Part shown: positions 12,766 to 19,724 of the stretch, one piece after another
Numbering within the stretch: position 1 is the stretch's first letter
Layout of the letters: the number at the start of each line of letters is the position of its first letter
Assembly (NCBI GenBank): GCA_021162935.1
Contig: JAGGXR010000149.1
Coordinates: forward strand, 1 to 44,980
Direction: 5' to 3'
Source of the DNA: Deltaproteobacteria bacterium
Lineage (GTDB): Bacteria; Myxococcota_A; Polyangia; HGW-17; SLPX01
DNA length: 44,980 nucleotides
Translations under genes and position numbers: made by a program
The notes under the pieces: model-generated
The model's input: only the letters and a program-made list of their open reading frames with translations
Database searches by the model: none
What the model was told of the DNA's origin: nothing

Positions 12766-13218
12766 ATGGACGCGATCTTCCAAGAAAAGCACATCACCCT
12801 GAATCTGAGTCTGCGGCTCTACCCTCTCGACGCGATTTACGGAGCCTGTTATCAGCTCATTGATGAAGCGTACCTGTATCTGGACCAAGAAGTTCCCGGC
12901 CGGATCCTGGTCACCGTCACGCCGAAAGCGACGAGCGATCGCAGCGTCCTCGAAGGACTTGCCGGGCGGTTCGAGAATGAACTGCTCCACCAGGTCCTTC
13001 GGCTGCGGCTCGATCGACGGACGGGCCGGGTCCGCGACATGATCGTGGGTCGTGCGCTCCTAGCGGCAGAGCCCCTGCTTGGCCCCGATTCGGACAACTC
13101 AGGAAGCAATGGCGCTCCGGACGATTACCTGGACGACCCCCTGGGCATCGCCGTGCCCTGGGAAGAAAAGTACGGATCTGACGAAGGGAAAAACCGTACC
13201 GACAGCGACGAGAACTGA
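12766..13218 (+). CDS. hxsD: His-Xaa-Ser system protein HxsD
   Basis: 150 residues. The region LRLYPLDAIYGACYQLIDEA and the later FENELLHQVLRLRLDRRTG, then VRDMIVGRAL, match the HxsD pattern: a YPLDAI turn, a beta hairpin, then a helix with Arg near the end. HxsD is a small helper protein found with the radical SAM proteins HxsB and HxsC in His-Xaa-Ser systems; its role is unproven but it may present the substrate, like other RiPP recognition proteins. The last 45 residues are an acidic Asp/Asn/Gly-rich tail not usual for HxsD. An AGGG box precedes the ATG. This is the first gene of a packed operon reaching 17,684; the next gene starts 1 bp after its stop. Confidence 0.8.
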   Translation: MDAIFQEKHITLNLSLRLYPLDAIYGACYQLIDEAYLYLDQEVPGRILVTVTPKATSDRSVLEGLAGRFENELLHQVLRLRLDRRTGRVRDMIVGRALLAAEPLLGPDSDNSGSNGAPDDYLDDPLGIAVPWEEKYGSDEGKNRTDSDEN

Positions 13219-13219
13219 C

Positions 13220-13429
13220 ATGATGCAACTCCGCTTTCACAAAAAACTTTATTCCCTGTCTGCCATTCGCCAGACCATGAAAGATTTCGAGCAGGCTATC
13301 TCGATGGCCATACGACCCCGGTCGGAAACCACCCATCACGTCCTGGATCTGGACAGCAACGACACCATCTTGGTTCACGAAGTCGCCACGCGCATCCTGC
13401 TCTACAGCATCCTCGCAAAGAAACGATAG
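13220..13429 (+). CDS. Second, short HxsD-like protein or candidate precursor, 69 aa
   Basis: 69 residues starting MMQLRFHKKLYSLSAIRQTM. The LYSLSAI segment matches LYPLDAI of the preceding HxsD, followed by a possible beta strand (HHVLDLDSND) and a last helix (VHEVATRILLYSILAKKR). It lacks the C-terminal helix of full HxsD. It begins 1 bp after the HxsD stop and ends 9 bp before hxsB, so all three are surely co-translated. Two readings fit: a truncated HxsD paralogue acting as a heterodimer partner, or a small substrate of HxsB. It has no Cys and no His-Xaa-Ser repeat; His residues occur at 7, 39, 40 and 53. The start could be either of two consecutive ATGs (13220 or 13223). Confidence 0.75.
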   Translation: MMQLRFHKKLYSLSAIRQTMKDFEQAISMAIRPRSETTHHVLDLDSNDTILVHEVATRILLYSILAKKR

Positions 13430-13438
13430 CCGGTCGCC

Positions 13439-15013
13439 ATGTCGATATCCCAGAGAAAAAGACGGCCCAACAGGCAAAACGCGCAGCCAGCCAAGAACAA
13501 AAAGCGGACCAGTGATGCTGCCGGGCTCGCGCGAATGCGCGTGGGCGGCGCCGTGCCCCCCTTGTACTTTCGCCCGCTGGGACCCGACTATCTCGTCACC
13601 AACGACGCAGGAAACTATGCCTTCTTGTCCCATGCAGCCTTTCGAGATGTGATCGCGGGCCGCGTTTCCCCTGAATCTCCACAATACCACGAACTCGTAC
13701 GAAAAGGCTTCGTGGACAACGGCTGGGCCACCACCATTCTGGAGCAGGGCTTTTCGGCCAGAAACAGCCATCTGCTTCTTGGTCCTTCACTTCACATCCT
13801 CATCCTGACACTGCGCTGCAACCAACAATGTGGATACTGTCAGGCGAGTCGGCGACCCATGTCAGACGGATCTGTGGACATGTCACAGAAGACGGCCCGG
13901 CGCATCCTGGACATGGTGTTCCAAAGTCCTGCCCCGGCACTGACCATCGAATTCCAAGGCGGCGAACCCCTTGCTAACTTCGCGGTCCTCAGGGCAGTGG
14001 TTCTGGATGCGGAACGACGAAATGAGACAGCGCGGCGCACGCTCTACTTCTCCGTAGTCACAAACCTGACCCTCATGGATGAAGACAAACTCTCCTTCTT
14101 GTTGGACCACGATGTGACCATCTGCACGTCGCTCGACGGCCCCAAGGATCTCCACGATGCCAATCGGCCCTGGACCGACGGGTCGAGTTACGACCACGCC
14201 GTGACCTGGATCGAGCGCATCCGCGAGGCCTATCGAACCCGCGGTTTTCTGGACGACGACTATCAGTTCAACGCCCTGTTGACCGTCACGCGCAAAACGC
14301 TCTCCATGCCCGACGCGGTCGTGGATGAATACGTGCGGCGCGGCTTCAAGGTCATCCATTTGCGACCATTGCAGCCTTTCGGACTCGCAGACCGGATGTG
14401 GGAACAACAGGGATACTCGGATGAGGATTTTCTGGATTTCTATCAAGCGGCGTTTCGTGCCATCCTGGCGCGCAACCAGCAAGGAATCGAAATTCAGGAA
14501 AAGACCGCCTCATTGTTTCTCACCAAAATTCTGACGACCTACGACCCTAACTATATGGACCTGCGGAGCCCCTGCGGAGCCGCGATCGGCCAACTCGCAT
14601 ACAACTACGATGGAAGCATCTATCCCTGCGACGAGGGCAGGATGGTCGCCGCCATGGGCGATCAGGCCTTTCGTCTCGGTTCCGTATTCGAGGACTCATA
14701 TGAACGAATCATCCACCACGACACCGTACGCGCAATGGCCACGGCTTCCTGTCTCGAAACGATTCCAGGCTGCGCGCACTGCGCATATAAACCGTACTGT
14801 GGCGTGTGTCCCGTTCTCTCCTACGTGTCCCAGGGAGACATCTTTGCCCGTCAACCCACCTCCAGCCGATGTCGCACTCAGACCGGCATCCAGGACCTCC
14901 TGTTCGCCACCCTGAAGGCGGCTGACCATAAAACCATCGAAGAACTGAAACGCTGGACCGAACAACGCGAACCCATTGCATCGGCCCGACATTCCGATAG
15001 AGTGGAGCCATGA
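13439..15013 (+). CDS. hxsB: His-Xaa-Ser system radical SAM maturase HxsB
   Basis: 524 residues. The N-terminal domain YFRPLGPDYLVTNDAGNYAF, then LSHAAF, is the HxsB pre-domain. The radical SAM core binds its 4Fe-4S cluster through CNQQCGYC (Cys127, 131, 134), followed by EFQGGEP and SLDGP. The C-terminal SPASM region has CGAAIGQLAYNYDGSIYPC and the run CAHCAYKPYCGVCP, giving enough cysteines for two auxiliary clusters. Such enzymes modify peptides by radical chemistry; the chemistry of HxsB is not established here. Residues 1-33 are a Lys/Arg-rich extension; an alternative start is Met33 or a nearby codon. It follows the short HxsD-like gene by 9 bp and overlaps the next gene by 4 bp (ATGA). 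Confidence 0.9.
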   Translation: MSISQRKRRPNRQNAQPAKNKKRTSDAAGLARMRVGGAVPPLYFRPLGPDYLVTNDAGNYAFLSHAAFRDVIAGRVSPESPQYHELVRKGFVDNGWATTILEQGFSARNSHLLLGPSLHILILTLRCNQQCGYCQASRRPMSDGSVDMSQKTARRILDMVFQSPAPALTIEFQGGEPLANFAVLRAVVLDAERRNETARRTLYFSVVTNLTLMDEDKLSFLLDHDVTICTSLDGPKDLHDANRPWTDGSSYDHAVTWIERIREAYRTRGFLDDDYQFNALLTVTRKTLSMPDAVVDEYVRRGFKVIHLRPLQPFGLADRMWEQQGYSDEDFLDFYQAAFRAILARNQQGIEIQEKTASLFLTKILTTYDPNYMDLRSPCGAAIGQLAYNYDGSIYPCDEGRMVAAMGDQAFRLGSVFEDSYERIIHHDTVRAMATASCLETIPGCAHCAYKPYCGVCPVLSYVSQGDIFARQPTSSRCRTQTGIQDLLFATLKAADHKTIEELKRWTEQREPIASARHSDRVEP

Positions 15014-16461
15014 CATATCAACTGATCATCTGTGCGGTTCTTCTGGCGCCCCCCTCGACCACACAACCCCGGACGGCCCGGACGCACGAGCAGCAACCAA
15101 CTGCCAACCGCGCTTCGGCCCGGCGCGCCCGAACCGCGCCAGGGCCGGCGCATCGAAAGACCGGGGCAACCGCTACCAGTCGACGGGCGCCAACAGTTGC
15201 TCGGGCCACCAAGCATCTCCACGCGTCCAAAGCGGCGACGGCCACGACGAATTCCTGGGCGATCGTGGTGGCAAGCCCCCATCCGACCAAACGGCAGGTC
15301 CAGCAAGTTGTTGCCCTGTACTCACATCCGAATTTTCGGGGTCTTGGCCAGGCCGTCGGCCCGACGGCCCTGCGCATGGTCCTCGCTGGCGCCCCGTTCA
15401 ACTGGACGATCGCTGAAGCGCGTTCCACCCTCGCCGCCGCCAGGTTGTCCTATGCAACCGTGAAGCTGCAGCAGGCCATCAACCAACTCCGTCGGGTCGA
15501 AAGCCTCTATCTGCGCTACGTGCCTTCGCCTCAGGCAAAAAACGGCCTCCACCAGGTCTGGGCCCTGATGGTCCTTGCCTACCACACTCTCGGAATGTCC
15601 CAAAAAGCCCGGAAGTCCGCCGAAAACCTTGCCCTGCTGGAGCCCACCGGCAACCCAGTTCCCCCCGCCATCTGGAGACAGTATGCGCCGAAGCGCCCGG
15701 CCAGATCGAGACGCACCCTGACCGTCGACGCTCCGGCGAACGCGACGCTCCTCATGGACTTCAAAGCCGTTCAGCCGACCGCTCACCGCGCCGATCGGGC
15801 CACGTGGTCCCTCAAGGTCAGCCGGGGCGGTCACCACATCATGCTGGACGCACCAGGACATGCCCATTTCTATGCGTGGGTGCCCCCGGGGCGAAAGGAC
15901 GCCCAAACCACGGTCGACATGCCGACACGACCAGCCGACTCGTTTGCTGAGCTGAGGGCCTTCTTTTCCTCCCTGTCCCGCAAGAACGCAGGTCTCGATC
16001 CGGCCGCGCTCGAAAGCATCGCGCGACGGACAAGGATTCGCCTTCTGCTCGTAGCCTGGTTCGATGTCCAGGGACTGAAGATCCGAGCCTTCGATAGTCG
16101 TCACAAGCGATACCTAGGTACAACCATCACCCTTAAAGGCACAACCGGCCAAGGGACCCAGACGCGTGCCTGGACGAAGCAGGTGGCCCTCGCCCTCTCG
16201 CCAGTGAAGGCACGGCCTTCACACGTGCCCTTGCCACGAAAGGCTCTGGCAAACAGCACAAAGAAGGCCGCTGGCCAAGAGGCGAAAAGGGCCGCTGAGC
16301 AGCGAAAGCTCAAAGGCCACCACAAACGCAAGCCCCTGTGGAAGCGCTGGTATTTCTGGGTGGCCATCGGGACCGTGGGTATTCTCGCCGGCGTCTTTGC
16401 CTACAAGAACAAGGACAACTCGACCAGCGACGTTGTCCGGGTCCGCGTGCACCGCCCGTGA
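15010..16461 (+). CDS. Exported protein with PEGA-like domain and C-terminal membrane anchor
   Basis: 483 residues. A short signal-like start (MTYQLIICAVLLAPPSTTQ) precedes a Thr/Arg/Ala-rich stretch. Residues about 80-215 form TPR-like helices (AIVVASPHPTKRQVQQVVAL). A PEGA-like beta domain follows (LTVDAPANATLLMDF, LKVSRGGHHIMLDAPGHAHF). Next comes an alpha/beta segment with IARRTRIRLLLVAWFDVQG. A very basic linker (KAAGQEAKRAAEQRKLKGHH) leads to one membrane helix (WYFWVAIGTVGILAGVFAY). No enzymatic motif was seen. The ATG overlaps the stop of hxsB and its own stop overlaps the peptidase start, placing it between a radical SAM maturase and a protease. It could be the modified substrate, a scaffold or a sensor; only one HxS tripeptide (HAS, near residue 73) is present. 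Confidence 0.75.
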   Translation: MTYQLIICAVLLAPPSTTQPRTARTHEQQPTANRASARRARTAPGPAHRKTGATATSRRAPTVARATKHLHASKAATATTNSWAIVVASPHPTKRQVQQVVALYSHPNFRGLGQAVGPTALRMVLAGAPFNWTIAEARSTLAAARLSYATVKLQQAINQLRRVESLYLRYVPSPQAKNGLHQVWALMVLAYHTLGMSQKARKSAENLALLEPTGNPVPPAIWRQYAPKRPARSRRTLTVDAPANATLLMDFKAVQPTAHRADRATWSLKVSRGGHHIMLDAPGHAHFYAWVPPGRKDAQTTVDMPTRPADSFAELRAFFSSLSRKNAGLDPAALESIARRTRIRLLLVAWFDVQGLKIRAFDSRHKRYLGTTITLKGTTGQGTQTRAWTKQVALALSPVKARPSHVPLPRKALANSTKKAAGQEAKRAAEQRKLKGHHKRKPLWKRWYFWVAIGTVGILAGVFAYKNKDNSTSDVVRVRVHRP

Positions 16462-17684
16462 CGATCTCGGCAACCTGTCTCTTCCTCCTCTTCGGCACGA
16501 TCGCGGCCCCACACACACCGCCAACGGCAACGGCTCGGCGACCGAACAGACAAACGACTCACCACGAAGCAACCGTCTCGCGACCGCCCCTTGGCCGCAT
16601 GATCCACATTCCGTACCTGCCGGGCTTTCAGGAACGTTGCACCCGATGGTTCTGCTTTCGCTATCCCGAAGAGCTGTCCTCTGCCGCAGAGGTCCTTGCA
16701 CGAAACAGCCACTGGGTCGTTGCAACCGTCTCGTTTCTGCTGGGAGAAGCACGGCCCAAGACCACGATCGTGGCGCTGAGCAGAACCAGAGTCGAGTTTC
16801 TCGCTCTCATGCCGGCCGGGGTTCGCCTGCCTCGCTGGGCAGCTGCAGTGGCGTTGCCCAGACTCGCCTACATCGCCTTTGCCCCCATCGGGGTCGGCAG
16901 GACGAAGCAATCCCTGGTGCGCCTGTTCATCCACGAGTACTCCCATGTGGTCCTGCGAGTCGCCACGAATCACCATCGCCTGCCAGCCTGGTTCGTCGAA
17001 GGGCTGGCAGAACTCCAGGCCCAACGAGTCCGCATGCCGTCTGCCTACGCCACCGAACCGGAGCTTCCGCTCGACCTCCTGGCCCGTCGTTTTCCCAGAC
17101 GCAGCGACCGAGCTTCGGCCGCCTACTCGCAAAGCAGGGACTTCGTGGCCTATCTCTATGCCGTTGGCACCCCACAGGACTTTCGAAGAATGATCCATTT
17201 GGTGGGCCGAGGAAAAACCTTGCGCCAGGCCGTCCATGTCGTCTATGGAACAGATATCAAGATCCTCGAACGATCATGGAGAGCCTCGTGGCGGTATCGC
17301 AACGTCGTACTGCCCTTATTCACATCGGGCGCTCTCCTGTGGATTCTGGCCAGCATCTTACTGCTGGCCGGCTATCGAAAACGCAGACGACTGCTGGCGA
17401 TGGCGGATATGACTGACACAACCGAAGAACAAGACGTCGAAGAAGAACGAGACGAAAACCTCCTGGACGAAGACCAGGAGACGGAGGAGGAGGAAGAAGA
17501 AGAGCCCCGTGGGCCGCAGTGGGACATTCCTCCTGTCGTGGTTCTCCTGATCGGCCTGGGTCTGACCCTAATGGCGGCGGCTGTGGTACGCCCTATCTGG
17601 CCGAGGGTGCGTTGGTCCACGCTGACCCTTGGCGCGGGAATCCTGACAGCGTTATTCCTTTTATGGTTCTGGCGCCGAAAATGA
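16458..17684 (+). CDS. Membrane-anchored gluzincin metallopeptidase (peptidase MA-like)
   Basis: 408 residues from the GTG at 16458, chosen because GTGA overlaps the previous stop. A hydrophobic N-terminus (ATCLFLLFGTIAA) directs export. The zinc motif is HEYSH (His159, Glu160, His163), with a downstream WFVEGLAE giving the third ligand Glu181, the arrangement of peptidase_MA-type gluzincins. After the catalytic domain come a membrane helix (LFTSGALLWILASILLLAGY), a strongly acidic Glu/Asp-rich linker and two more helices (VVVLLIGLGLTLMAAAVV, LGAGILTALFLLWFW). This is the last gene of the hxsD-hxsB operon, where it may cleave the modified product or the preceding PEGA protein; that is inference. 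It converges on sctN with 26 bp between. Confidence 0.85.
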   Translation: MTISATCLFLLFGTIAAPHTPPTATARRPNRQTTHHEATVSRPPLGRMIHIPYLPGFQERCTRWFCFRYPEELSSAAEVLARNSHWVVATVSFLLGEARPKTTIVALSRTRVEFLALMPAGVRLPRWAAAVALPRLAYIAFAPIGVGRTKQSLVRLFIHEYSHVVLRVATNHHRLPAWFVEGLAELQAQRVRMPSAYATEPELPLDLLARRFPRRSDRASAAYSQSRDFVAYLYAVGTPQDFRRMIHLVGRGKTLRQAVHVVYGTDIKILERSWRASWRYRNVVLPLFTSGALLWILASILLLAGYRKRRRLLAMADMTDTTEEQDVEEERDENLLDEDQETEEEEEEEPRGPQWDIPPVVVLLIGLGLTLMAAAVVRPIWPRVRWSTLTLGAGILTALFLLWFWRRK

Positions 17685-17710: not shown

Positions 17711-19021
17711 TCATCCAACGAGATCGATGAGGTGCTGCCTGGCTGAATCCAAATCAGAGTCATCGTTTCGGCCCTGACGAAGAAAGTCCATCATGGGCTG
17801 AAGGTTCTTGAGGGCCCTGTCGACTTCCGAGTCGGTCCCGGCCTTATAAGCTCCAAGCGTAATGAGATCCCGATGAGCCTCATAGGCGGCCAGCAGCCGG
17901 CGGAAGGCCCCGGCCGCTCTTCGGTGATCCTCGTCGACCACATGGTCCATGACACGAGAAAGACTGGCAAGGACATCCACGGCGGGATAATGGTTCCGAC
18001 TTGCAAGCTCTCGGCTCAAAATGATGTGCCCGTCCAGGATCCCGCGCACCTCATCGGCGATGGGCTCCTCCATGTCTCCCCCGGCCACCAAGACCGTGTA
18101 GAGGGCCGTGATCGAGCCCGCCTCGGTGGTCCCGGTACGCTCCAGCAACTTCGGCAGGGCCGCAAACACGCTCGGGGGATACCCGCGCCGCGCAGGAGGT
18201 TCGCCAGCGGCCAAGCCAACCTCTCTCTGCGCCCTTGCATACCGAGTGACCGAATCCATGAGAAACAGGACCCGGGCCCCTTGATCGCGGAAGAACTCAG
18301 CAATGGCCGTGGCGACCTCTGCGGATGTCAATCGTACGAGACTCGGCGCATCAGACGTGGCACAAACGACCACGGAACGCGCAAGACCTTCTTGACCGAG
18401 AGGGCCTTCGACGAACTCTCGGACCTCCCTGCCACGCTCGCCGACAAGACAGATCACGTTCAGGTCGGCGCCACTGTGCCGCGCAATCTGCCCAAGGAGC
18501 GTAGATTTGCCCACACCAGATCCGGCAAACAACCCGACGCGCTGCCCCTCACCCACCGTGCACAGGCCGTCGAGTACCCGAACCCCCACCGAAAGAGGTC
18601 GGCTGATCAGCGGTCGTTTCATGGGGTCCGGGGCCACGCGCCGCACAGGCCAGGCCGTCAGCGGCCCAGCCAACGGGCCACGGCCGTCCGCTGGCTGCCC
18701 CAACCCATCGAGCACCCGACCAATCAGACCGCGCCCACAAGAAATGTCGAGCCGCCGCCCCAGGGGCTCCACCACGCTGTCCGGACCAACTCCTTCCGGG
18801 TCCCCGAGGGGAACGAGGAGAACCTGCTCGCCACGGAACCCCACCACCTCGGCACGGAGCGGATCCAAGTCATGACGTTGGACCGAAACGAGATCGCCCA
18901 CTCGAACGCCAGGAATGACGGCTTTGAGCACGAGGCCCACCAACTCGGTGACTCGCCCCTTGGCCCGCACGGTCTGCGCCGTCGCCACCCGCGACAATGC
19001 CCTATCCAACAGGTCGTCCAT
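17711..19021 (-). CDS. sctN: Type III secretion ATPase (SctN/FliI family)
   Basis: 436 residues. Walker A is GSGVGKST (residues 167-174). [20 protein letters not shown] and [20 protein letters not shown] are hallmarks of the FliI/SctN ATPases that power export of type III substrates. It forms a hexamer at the base of an injectisome or flagellar export gate. The adjacent SctL-like stator fits. ATG 19021 was chosen because a GAGGTG box precedes it and the [12 protein letters not shown] start fits the family, unlike the longer upstream reading, which overlaps sctL. No other type III genes lie in the window, so flagellar versus injectisome type cannot be decided from context. The 10-bp gap to sctL suggests one transcript. 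Confidence 0.93.
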
Positions 19022-19031
19022 GGCCACCTCT

Positions 19032-19724
19032 CTATGGTTTGTCTTCTTCGAGCAGCGCGCGTTCGAGCGCAGCAAGCTGCGATTCGACCGAGGCATCAAT
19101 CTGCCCCGCCTCGCTGTCCACGAGACAGCCACCTCTCGTAATGGACGGATCTTCGACGAACACCACATCCGCCTGGATTTGCGCCGCCGACAGGAGATCG
19201 CTGCGATGAAGCCGTATCGCCTCCACGTCCTGCGGATGCGCGTGAATCACCAACTTCGAACACCAGGCCACCTGCAACATGGCCCTTGCGGCGACTGAAA
19301 CCACGGCCTCCGGCCTGAGCGCGAGTTCACTGGCAAGAATCTTCTCCGCCATCCTCGTCGCCAACGTCACGAGTTGCTTGGATGACGACGCCTGCAGCCT
19401 GGACGCCTCGACCCGAGCACGAACGAGCACCTCCGTCGCCTGGCCAAGCCCCTCCTCGTAACCCAAGGCGCGAGCCTCGGCTACAACCGCATCCCTGGCA
19501 TATCGCGCCTTGGCCAGAATCTCTTCTGCCTGGTGACCGGCACGCTCTACGATTCGCTGCGCGACCGCCCGTGCGTCTACAACCTGGTAAGAAAGCATCG
19601 CTTCCGGCCTCGAAAGGACACGAGCCCGAATCGACCGACCGCTAGCGGATTCCGACTGGATCGGTGCAGAATTAGATGAGCGCCCGGGCCCCACAGGCCC
19701 TTCTTTGGATCGCCAGGCAGGCAT
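19032..19724 (-). CDS. sctL: Type III secretion stator protein, SctL/FliH family
   Basis: 230 residues from ATG 19724, preceded by GGAGG. After a low-complexity N-terminal 50 residues comes a long Ala/Glu/Arg coiled coil ([19 protein letters not shown], then [13 protein letters not shown]), typical of FliH/YscL and ATP synthase b-delta-like stalks. The C-terminal V-type stator domain includes [20 protein letters not shown] and [13 protein letters not shown], close to YscL/HrpE consensus. It would anchor and restrain the SctN ATPase at the cytoplasmic sorting platform. The gene is divergent from the large lipoprotein gene, with about 240 bp between their starts. Confidence 0.88.

Follow-up and report, generated by a model that had tools for sequence, protein, structure and literature searches.

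A three-gene hxsD, hxsD_rel, hxsB cassette as the probable maturation module of an HxsA4-type His-Xaa-Ser system with its substrate encoded in trans

His-Xaa-Ser systems were named more than a decade ago and are widespread, and a literature search that covered sources other than subscription journals found no functional study of HxsB, HxsC, HxsD, HxsA, or HxsA4. The described arrangements closest to the locus analyzed here are the canonical HxsABCD system (TIGR03976 to TIGR03979), with which it shares the HxsB and HxsD families and a His-Xaa-Ser repeat substrate, and the HxsA4-type system (NF038313, NF038315, TIGR03978, and sometimes NF038332). Two further groups of modified peptides bear on its possible chemistry and export. 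Triceptide enzymes couple an aromatic ring with the β-carbon of the residue two positions on, with His-Ala, His-Arg, and Phe-Ser links having been shown (PMC11002830), and an export signal on a bacterial RiPP precursor is described as a great rarity, the known cases using Sec (PMC12452194).

The window, i.e., the whole stretch of DNA that was analyzed, is the complete contig C161 (44,980 bases) of a MAG that is 97% complete with 3% contamination (5.13 Mb in 168 contigs). Because the window is a single contig of 168, absence from it does not mean absence from the genome. A sequence-only reading of the window had proposed a reduced or different maturation system with an unknown substrate. The first part of that proposal stands in that the system is not canonical HxsABCD, but the second part does not, as an HxsA4 is encoded on contig C17 of the same genome; the orphan interpretation arose because one contig alone was viewed. 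We assign a rough probability of 0.85, which covers system type and substrate jointly and leaves the chemistry aside, to the reading that the cassette makes up the whole maturation part of an HxsA4-type system for which the C17 HxsA4 is the substrate in trans, as opposed to a defective HxsABCD system.

Layout of the cassette and its two helpers

The features of the cassette, its downstream neighbors, and the candidate substrate gene are collected in Table 1. The three genes lie in a row with gaps of 1 bp (hxsD to hxsD_rel) and 9 bp (hxsD_rel to hxsB), exactly as the sequence-only reading had placed them. Its description of two hxsD-like genes was correct in that both are present, and needs amending for the short one, which matches the HxsD_rel model NF038315 and not HxsD itself; this match is sub-cut-off, and the position in sister genomes, the fold, and the profile agree with the assignment. 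By profile search, hxsD is single-copy in the whole genome. The maturase has the complete CxxxCxxC motif and cysteine-rich SPASM region attributed to it: alignment with 15 relatives (42–53% identity) revealed invariant catalytic cysteines and intact SPASM cysteines.

Table 1. Positions of the cassette genes, motifs, downstream neighbors, and candidate substrate gene (window coordinates unless a contig is named)
Feature	Position	Strand	Description
hxsD	12766..13218	+	150 aa; ferredoxin-like alpha/beta domain, long C-terminal helix; TIGR03976 56.4 bits, cut-off 50
hxsD_rel	13220..13429	+	69 aa; small protein related to HxsD; NF038315 31.3 bits, cut-off of 41 not reached
hxsB	13439..15013	+	524 aa, radical SAM/SPASM maturase; TIGR03978 532 bits, cut-off 370
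Radical SAM CxxxCxxC motif, CNQQCGYC	13817..13840	+	Located by sequence; invariant in HxsB alignment
SPASM domain region	14573..14782	+	PF13186 23.9 bits, gathering cut-off 21.5
p483	15010..16461	+	Signal-like region at the N-terminus, membrane helix at the C-terminus; 4-nt overlap of its start with the hxsB stop
Peptidase-MA-like metalloprotease, HExxH type	16338..17684	+	PF13485 46.8 bits, cut-off 32.4
HxsA4	G000:C17 7919-7497	-	140 aa; NF038313 89.9 bits, cut-off 55

In a six-frame scan of the window, hxsB was the one ORF of its kind and held the one radical SAM motif, and HxS arrays were absent from every frame, in agreement with the earlier statement that the window holds neither a second radical SAM gene nor an HxS-repeat protein. 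A scan for direct repeats near the cassette was likewise empty, and a substrate inside the window was rejected on these two scans. Downstream of hxsB, p483 could not be assigned to a family by profile searches, and the true start of the metalloprotease is probably further downstream than the position listed. A gene for a FliI/YscN-type secretion ATPase (17711-19168, - strand) converges on the operon, as does one in locus L037 (5254-6624, - strand).

The HxsD and HxsD_rel profiles are related (96.7% probability), and the AlphaFold models of both (mean pLDDT of 85 for HxsD, with about 95 or more for residues 11-100, and 94.5 for HxsD_rel) have a ferredoxin-like beta-alpha-beta-beta-alpha fold to which HxsD adds a long helix. 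Either protein might still be a leader-binding protein of the RRE/PqqD type, for which a winged helix-turn-helix would be expected: in a structure search with both, no solved structure stood out, and no RRE or PqqD chains were among the best structural matches (Z ≤8.2). The gene order suggests that HxsD and HxsD_rel may serve in leader binding.

An HxsA4 gene outside the window and its co-occurrence with HxsB

Searching the genome for HxsA4 gave one strong match, on C17 (Table 1). This protein ends in AQHCSHGS(HGS)nW, and its C-terminal core, HCS(HGS)nW, has ∼15 HxS units, nearly all of them His-Gly-Ser, and contains a single Cys. Its leader is LPKTPASFLNSKE, and its start, MKKLPPKLPKTPASFLNSKEARVTRRDFLSSSS, resembles that of its counterpart in the same-order genome G002, where HxsA4 and hxsB also lie on different contigs. 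The motif P-x(4-10)-[FMYL]-L-x(2,3)-E was found in 45 of 62 HxsA4 leaders, compared to 3.7% of shuffled leaders, and the leader motif of this HxsA4 also occurs in HxsA4s of relatives that adjoin hxsB. C17 (GC of 61.9% versus 60.4%) is closer in GC content and tetranucleotide profile to the window's genome than to the DNA of relatives, and this composition check gave no sign that C17 is a contaminant. The own HxsA4 locus and that of G002 have no neighbor in common, so HxsA4 looks like a stand-alone gene. In another locus, distant from hxsB, two HxsA4 genes with nearly identical leaders form a tandem pair (L163:6120-6767).

The pairing of the window HxsB with the C17 HxsA4 is probable on the basis of leader likeness together with co-occurrence. 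Among 318 genomes of the class, HxsB was detected in 104 and HxsA4 in 101, with both in 94 and HxsA4 alone in seven (Fisher p = 1e-59, from counts uncorrected for relatedness); HxsD_rel was detected in 98 of the same genomes, 95 of which have HxsA4 (p = 2e-69, also uncorrected for relatedness). The HxsB genomes without HxsA4 comprise seven of the HxsC type together with G001 (65% complete), G005 (86% complete), and G042, the last with a weak HxsA4 adjoining an HxsC4 gene. In G001, a sister genome, the cassette is present and HxsA4 was not found. Seven HxsB genomes lack both HxsA4 and HxsD_rel, and all are among the 12 genomes (of 318) in which HxsC exceeds its cut-off.

Of the 94 genomes, 48 have HxsA4 no more than 3.5 kb from hxsB and 46 have it elsewhere, from which we conclude that a substrate in trans is normal in this class; the two genes are on different contigs in 35 genomes, some of which may merely look unlinked through assembly breaks, and are 397 kb apart in the single-contig genome G119, whose HxsB is nearly the same as the one in Nannocystis exedens, in keeping with a class that is most likely Polyangia, Myxococcota. 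Since the substrate is apart from its maturase in about half of the class genomes, mining of peptide products by gene neighborhood calls such loci orphan.

In a neighborhood comparison, as the sequence-only reading had advised, the three genes proved to form a conserved block. The hxsD, hxsD_rel, hxsB order recurs in related genera and families, and beyond them in Elusimicrobiota, Patescibacteria, Omnitrophota, Spirochaetota, and Bdellovibrionota, a recurrence across the class and other phyla that is far beyond chance, and in many of these loci an HGS-repeat protein, named HxsA4 by NCBIfam, is encoded directly behind hxsB. Several Patescibacteria, a group known for small genomes, combine the block with HxS repeat proteins, one of which has 38 units (L111:3302-4822, L102, L113, L120, and L125). 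Among culturable relatives, Nannocystis exedens and Polyangium have hxsB loci of the kind with HxsA4 and no HxsC. G013 has at least four HxsB copies with differing neighbors (L038, L039, L046, and L047). In relatives (L032, L040, L043, L044, and L045), hxsB shares islands with several further radical SAM genes, a number of which are fused to B12-binding or methyltransferase parts; each island is possibly a larger biosynthetic cluster.

The check for hxsC and hxsA elsewhere in the genome, which the sequence-only reading had named as one that could refute it, had a mixed outcome: HxsA is present in the form of HxsA4, and HxsC is absent. The best match in the genome to HxsC (TIGR03977) scored 92 bits against a cut-off of 267.9, with every match below it, and the best match to canonical HxsA (TIGR03979) scored 14.6 bits against a cut-off of 121.65. 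In the HxsB tree, the HxsC-associated HxsBs, which occur without HxsD_rel, are united on a single long branch (length of 1.42 changes per column, support of 100). The window HxsB falls outside that clade and groups with its own order, four genomes of family f8, and a few Myxococcota loci. Four genomes (G117, G244, G283, and G286) have both system types, each with a separate HxsB.

Competing explanations, possible chemistry, and export

A second radical SAM enzyme encoded elsewhere, e.g., one of the HxsC4-like proteins on C5 or C27, could be a needed partner, in which case the system would not be single-enzyme. In 5 of 17 related genomes HxsC4 (NF038332) does score above the cut-off, adjoining HxsA4 in one of them, G026, and our genome contains HxsC4-like matches; we nevertheless regard this explanation as improbable, because the best of these matches reaches 158 bits, far below the cut-off of 500 (on which ground these proteins were rejected as HxsC4), the remaining 12 HxsB genomes tested have no HxsC4 over the cut-off, and radical SAM proteins are numerous in these genomes. 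HxsC4 is optional and not defining for HxsA4-type systems, most members of which lack it. Three consecutive radical SAM genes are found on C5 (17396-22319), one of them HxsC4-related with a sub-cut-off score of 135 bits.

It is very unlikely that the substrate lies in the cassette's own operon, with p483 or the metalloprotease being modified by HxsB and HxsA4 being unrelated. The overlap of the p483 start with the hxsB stop codon is consistent with that arrangement, as is the gene order in G001, where hxsD, hxsD_rel, and hxsB are followed by homologues of p483 (E = 5e-46) and of the peptidase-MA protein (E = 7e-79). Against it, in the other genera covered, among them G002 and G005 from this order, neither homologue occurs in the vicinity of hxsB; p483 contains a single Cys and is free of repeats; and HxsA4 is paired with HxsB in 94 of 104 HxsB genomes. 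As the two genes accompany hxsB in G001 and not in other genera, they may be lineage-specific partners, serving more likely as receptor or anchor and as processing protease than as substrates, and the metalloprotease is a candidate for leader removal. The last alternative, a decayed or orphan cassette remaining after the loss of hxsC and hxsA from a canonical HxsABCD locus, would fit the lack of HxsC and canonical HxsA and the sub-cut-off score of HxsD_rel, but is highly implausible given the intact catalytic cysteines of HxsB, the distinct clade of HxsC-type HxsBs, the genomes that hold both types as two HxsBs, and the presence of HxsA4 in this genome.

For the HxsA4-type system with its substrate in trans, we propose that HxsD, HxsD_rel, and the N-terminal part of HxsB would hold the HxsA4 leader, that HxsB would move along the repeats and use SAM and Fe-S clusters to modify each His-Xaa-Ser unit, and that the modified HxsA4 would exit the cytoplasm by the Tat route. 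By analogy to the triceptides, the likeliest reaction may be the cross-linking, in each repeat, of the His ring to the β-carbon of the Ser two residues on, an assignment that we offer tentatively; possible alternatives are oxidation of the Ser, a link formed by the Cys of HCS, or some different change. In profile scores, HxsB is nearer to PapB, nif11, and AnSME-type enzymes than to known cyclophane formers. Its nearest solved relative by sequence is PDB 5wgg (E = 2.5e-32, spanning the radical SAM and SPASM regions), which we take to be CteB, the SCIFF thioether maturase. A more speculative and rather doubtful extension is that HxsB alone, with the two HxsD-type helpers, might build a ladder of His-Ser rings (∼15 per chain) that is exported folded by Tat to give a rigid polymer in the periplasm or at the surface that probably binds metal, and that one maturase could serve scattered targets.

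The putative, Tat-like twin-arginine signal of HxsA4, TRRDFLSSSSLLLL...AQA, consists of a TRRDFL motif, a hydrophobic stretch, and AQA. Because the Tat signal model TIGR01409 scored 13.0 bits on this protein, just under its cut-off of 16.7, we treat the predicted export of modified HxsA4 via Tat as a lead. A twin-arginine motif with a hydrophobic stretch is present in 8 of 8 readable HxsA4 leaders from the clade of the window HxsB, to which these eight were assigned by hand from the HxsB tree, versus 2 of 53 outside it. A Tat-like signal on a precursor would be unusual among RiPPs. The locus is a compact test set, as it combines a single radical SAM enzyme and two small putative helpers with one probable substrate whose repeat core is easily read.

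Comparison with described systems

Bufferins, which are MNIO-modified RiPPs, have a modified precursor with a signal peptide for export where others have a plain leader, as HxsA4 would if its Tat-like signal is functional; they differ in using Sec instead of the predicted Tat route, a different enzyme class, and Cys-based chemistry (PMC12452194). The triceptide maturases (MscB for Phe-Ser, HaaB/ScaB for His-Ala, and YhhB for His-Arg) are also radical SAM/SPASM enzymes and act on an aromatic residue at i and a modifiable residue at i+2, as in His-x-Ser (PMC11002830). HxsB stands outside their families, however, with the GrrM/OscB, FxsB, YhhB, and AmcB models far under their cut-offs. CteB acts on a Cys-rich peptide, in contrast to the HxsA4 core with its lone Cys. 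Unlike the canonical HxsABCD system, the present one has no HxsC, includes HxsD_rel, uses an HxsB of another clade, and has plain HGS repeats where the canonical substrate is an HRSHSS-type HxsA. The HxsA4-type system shares with this locus the block of HxsB, HxsD, and, by a sub-cut-off match here, HxsD_rel, an HxsA4 in the genome, and the lack of HxsC and canonical HxsA; the locus departs from it in that the substrate is encoded on another contig and does not adjoin hxsB, the substrate signal is Tat-like, HxsD_rel has diverged, and no HxsC4 exceeds the cut-off. The families concerned are already modeled in NCBIfam, and the locus represents a known system type in a split layout, not a new kind of system.
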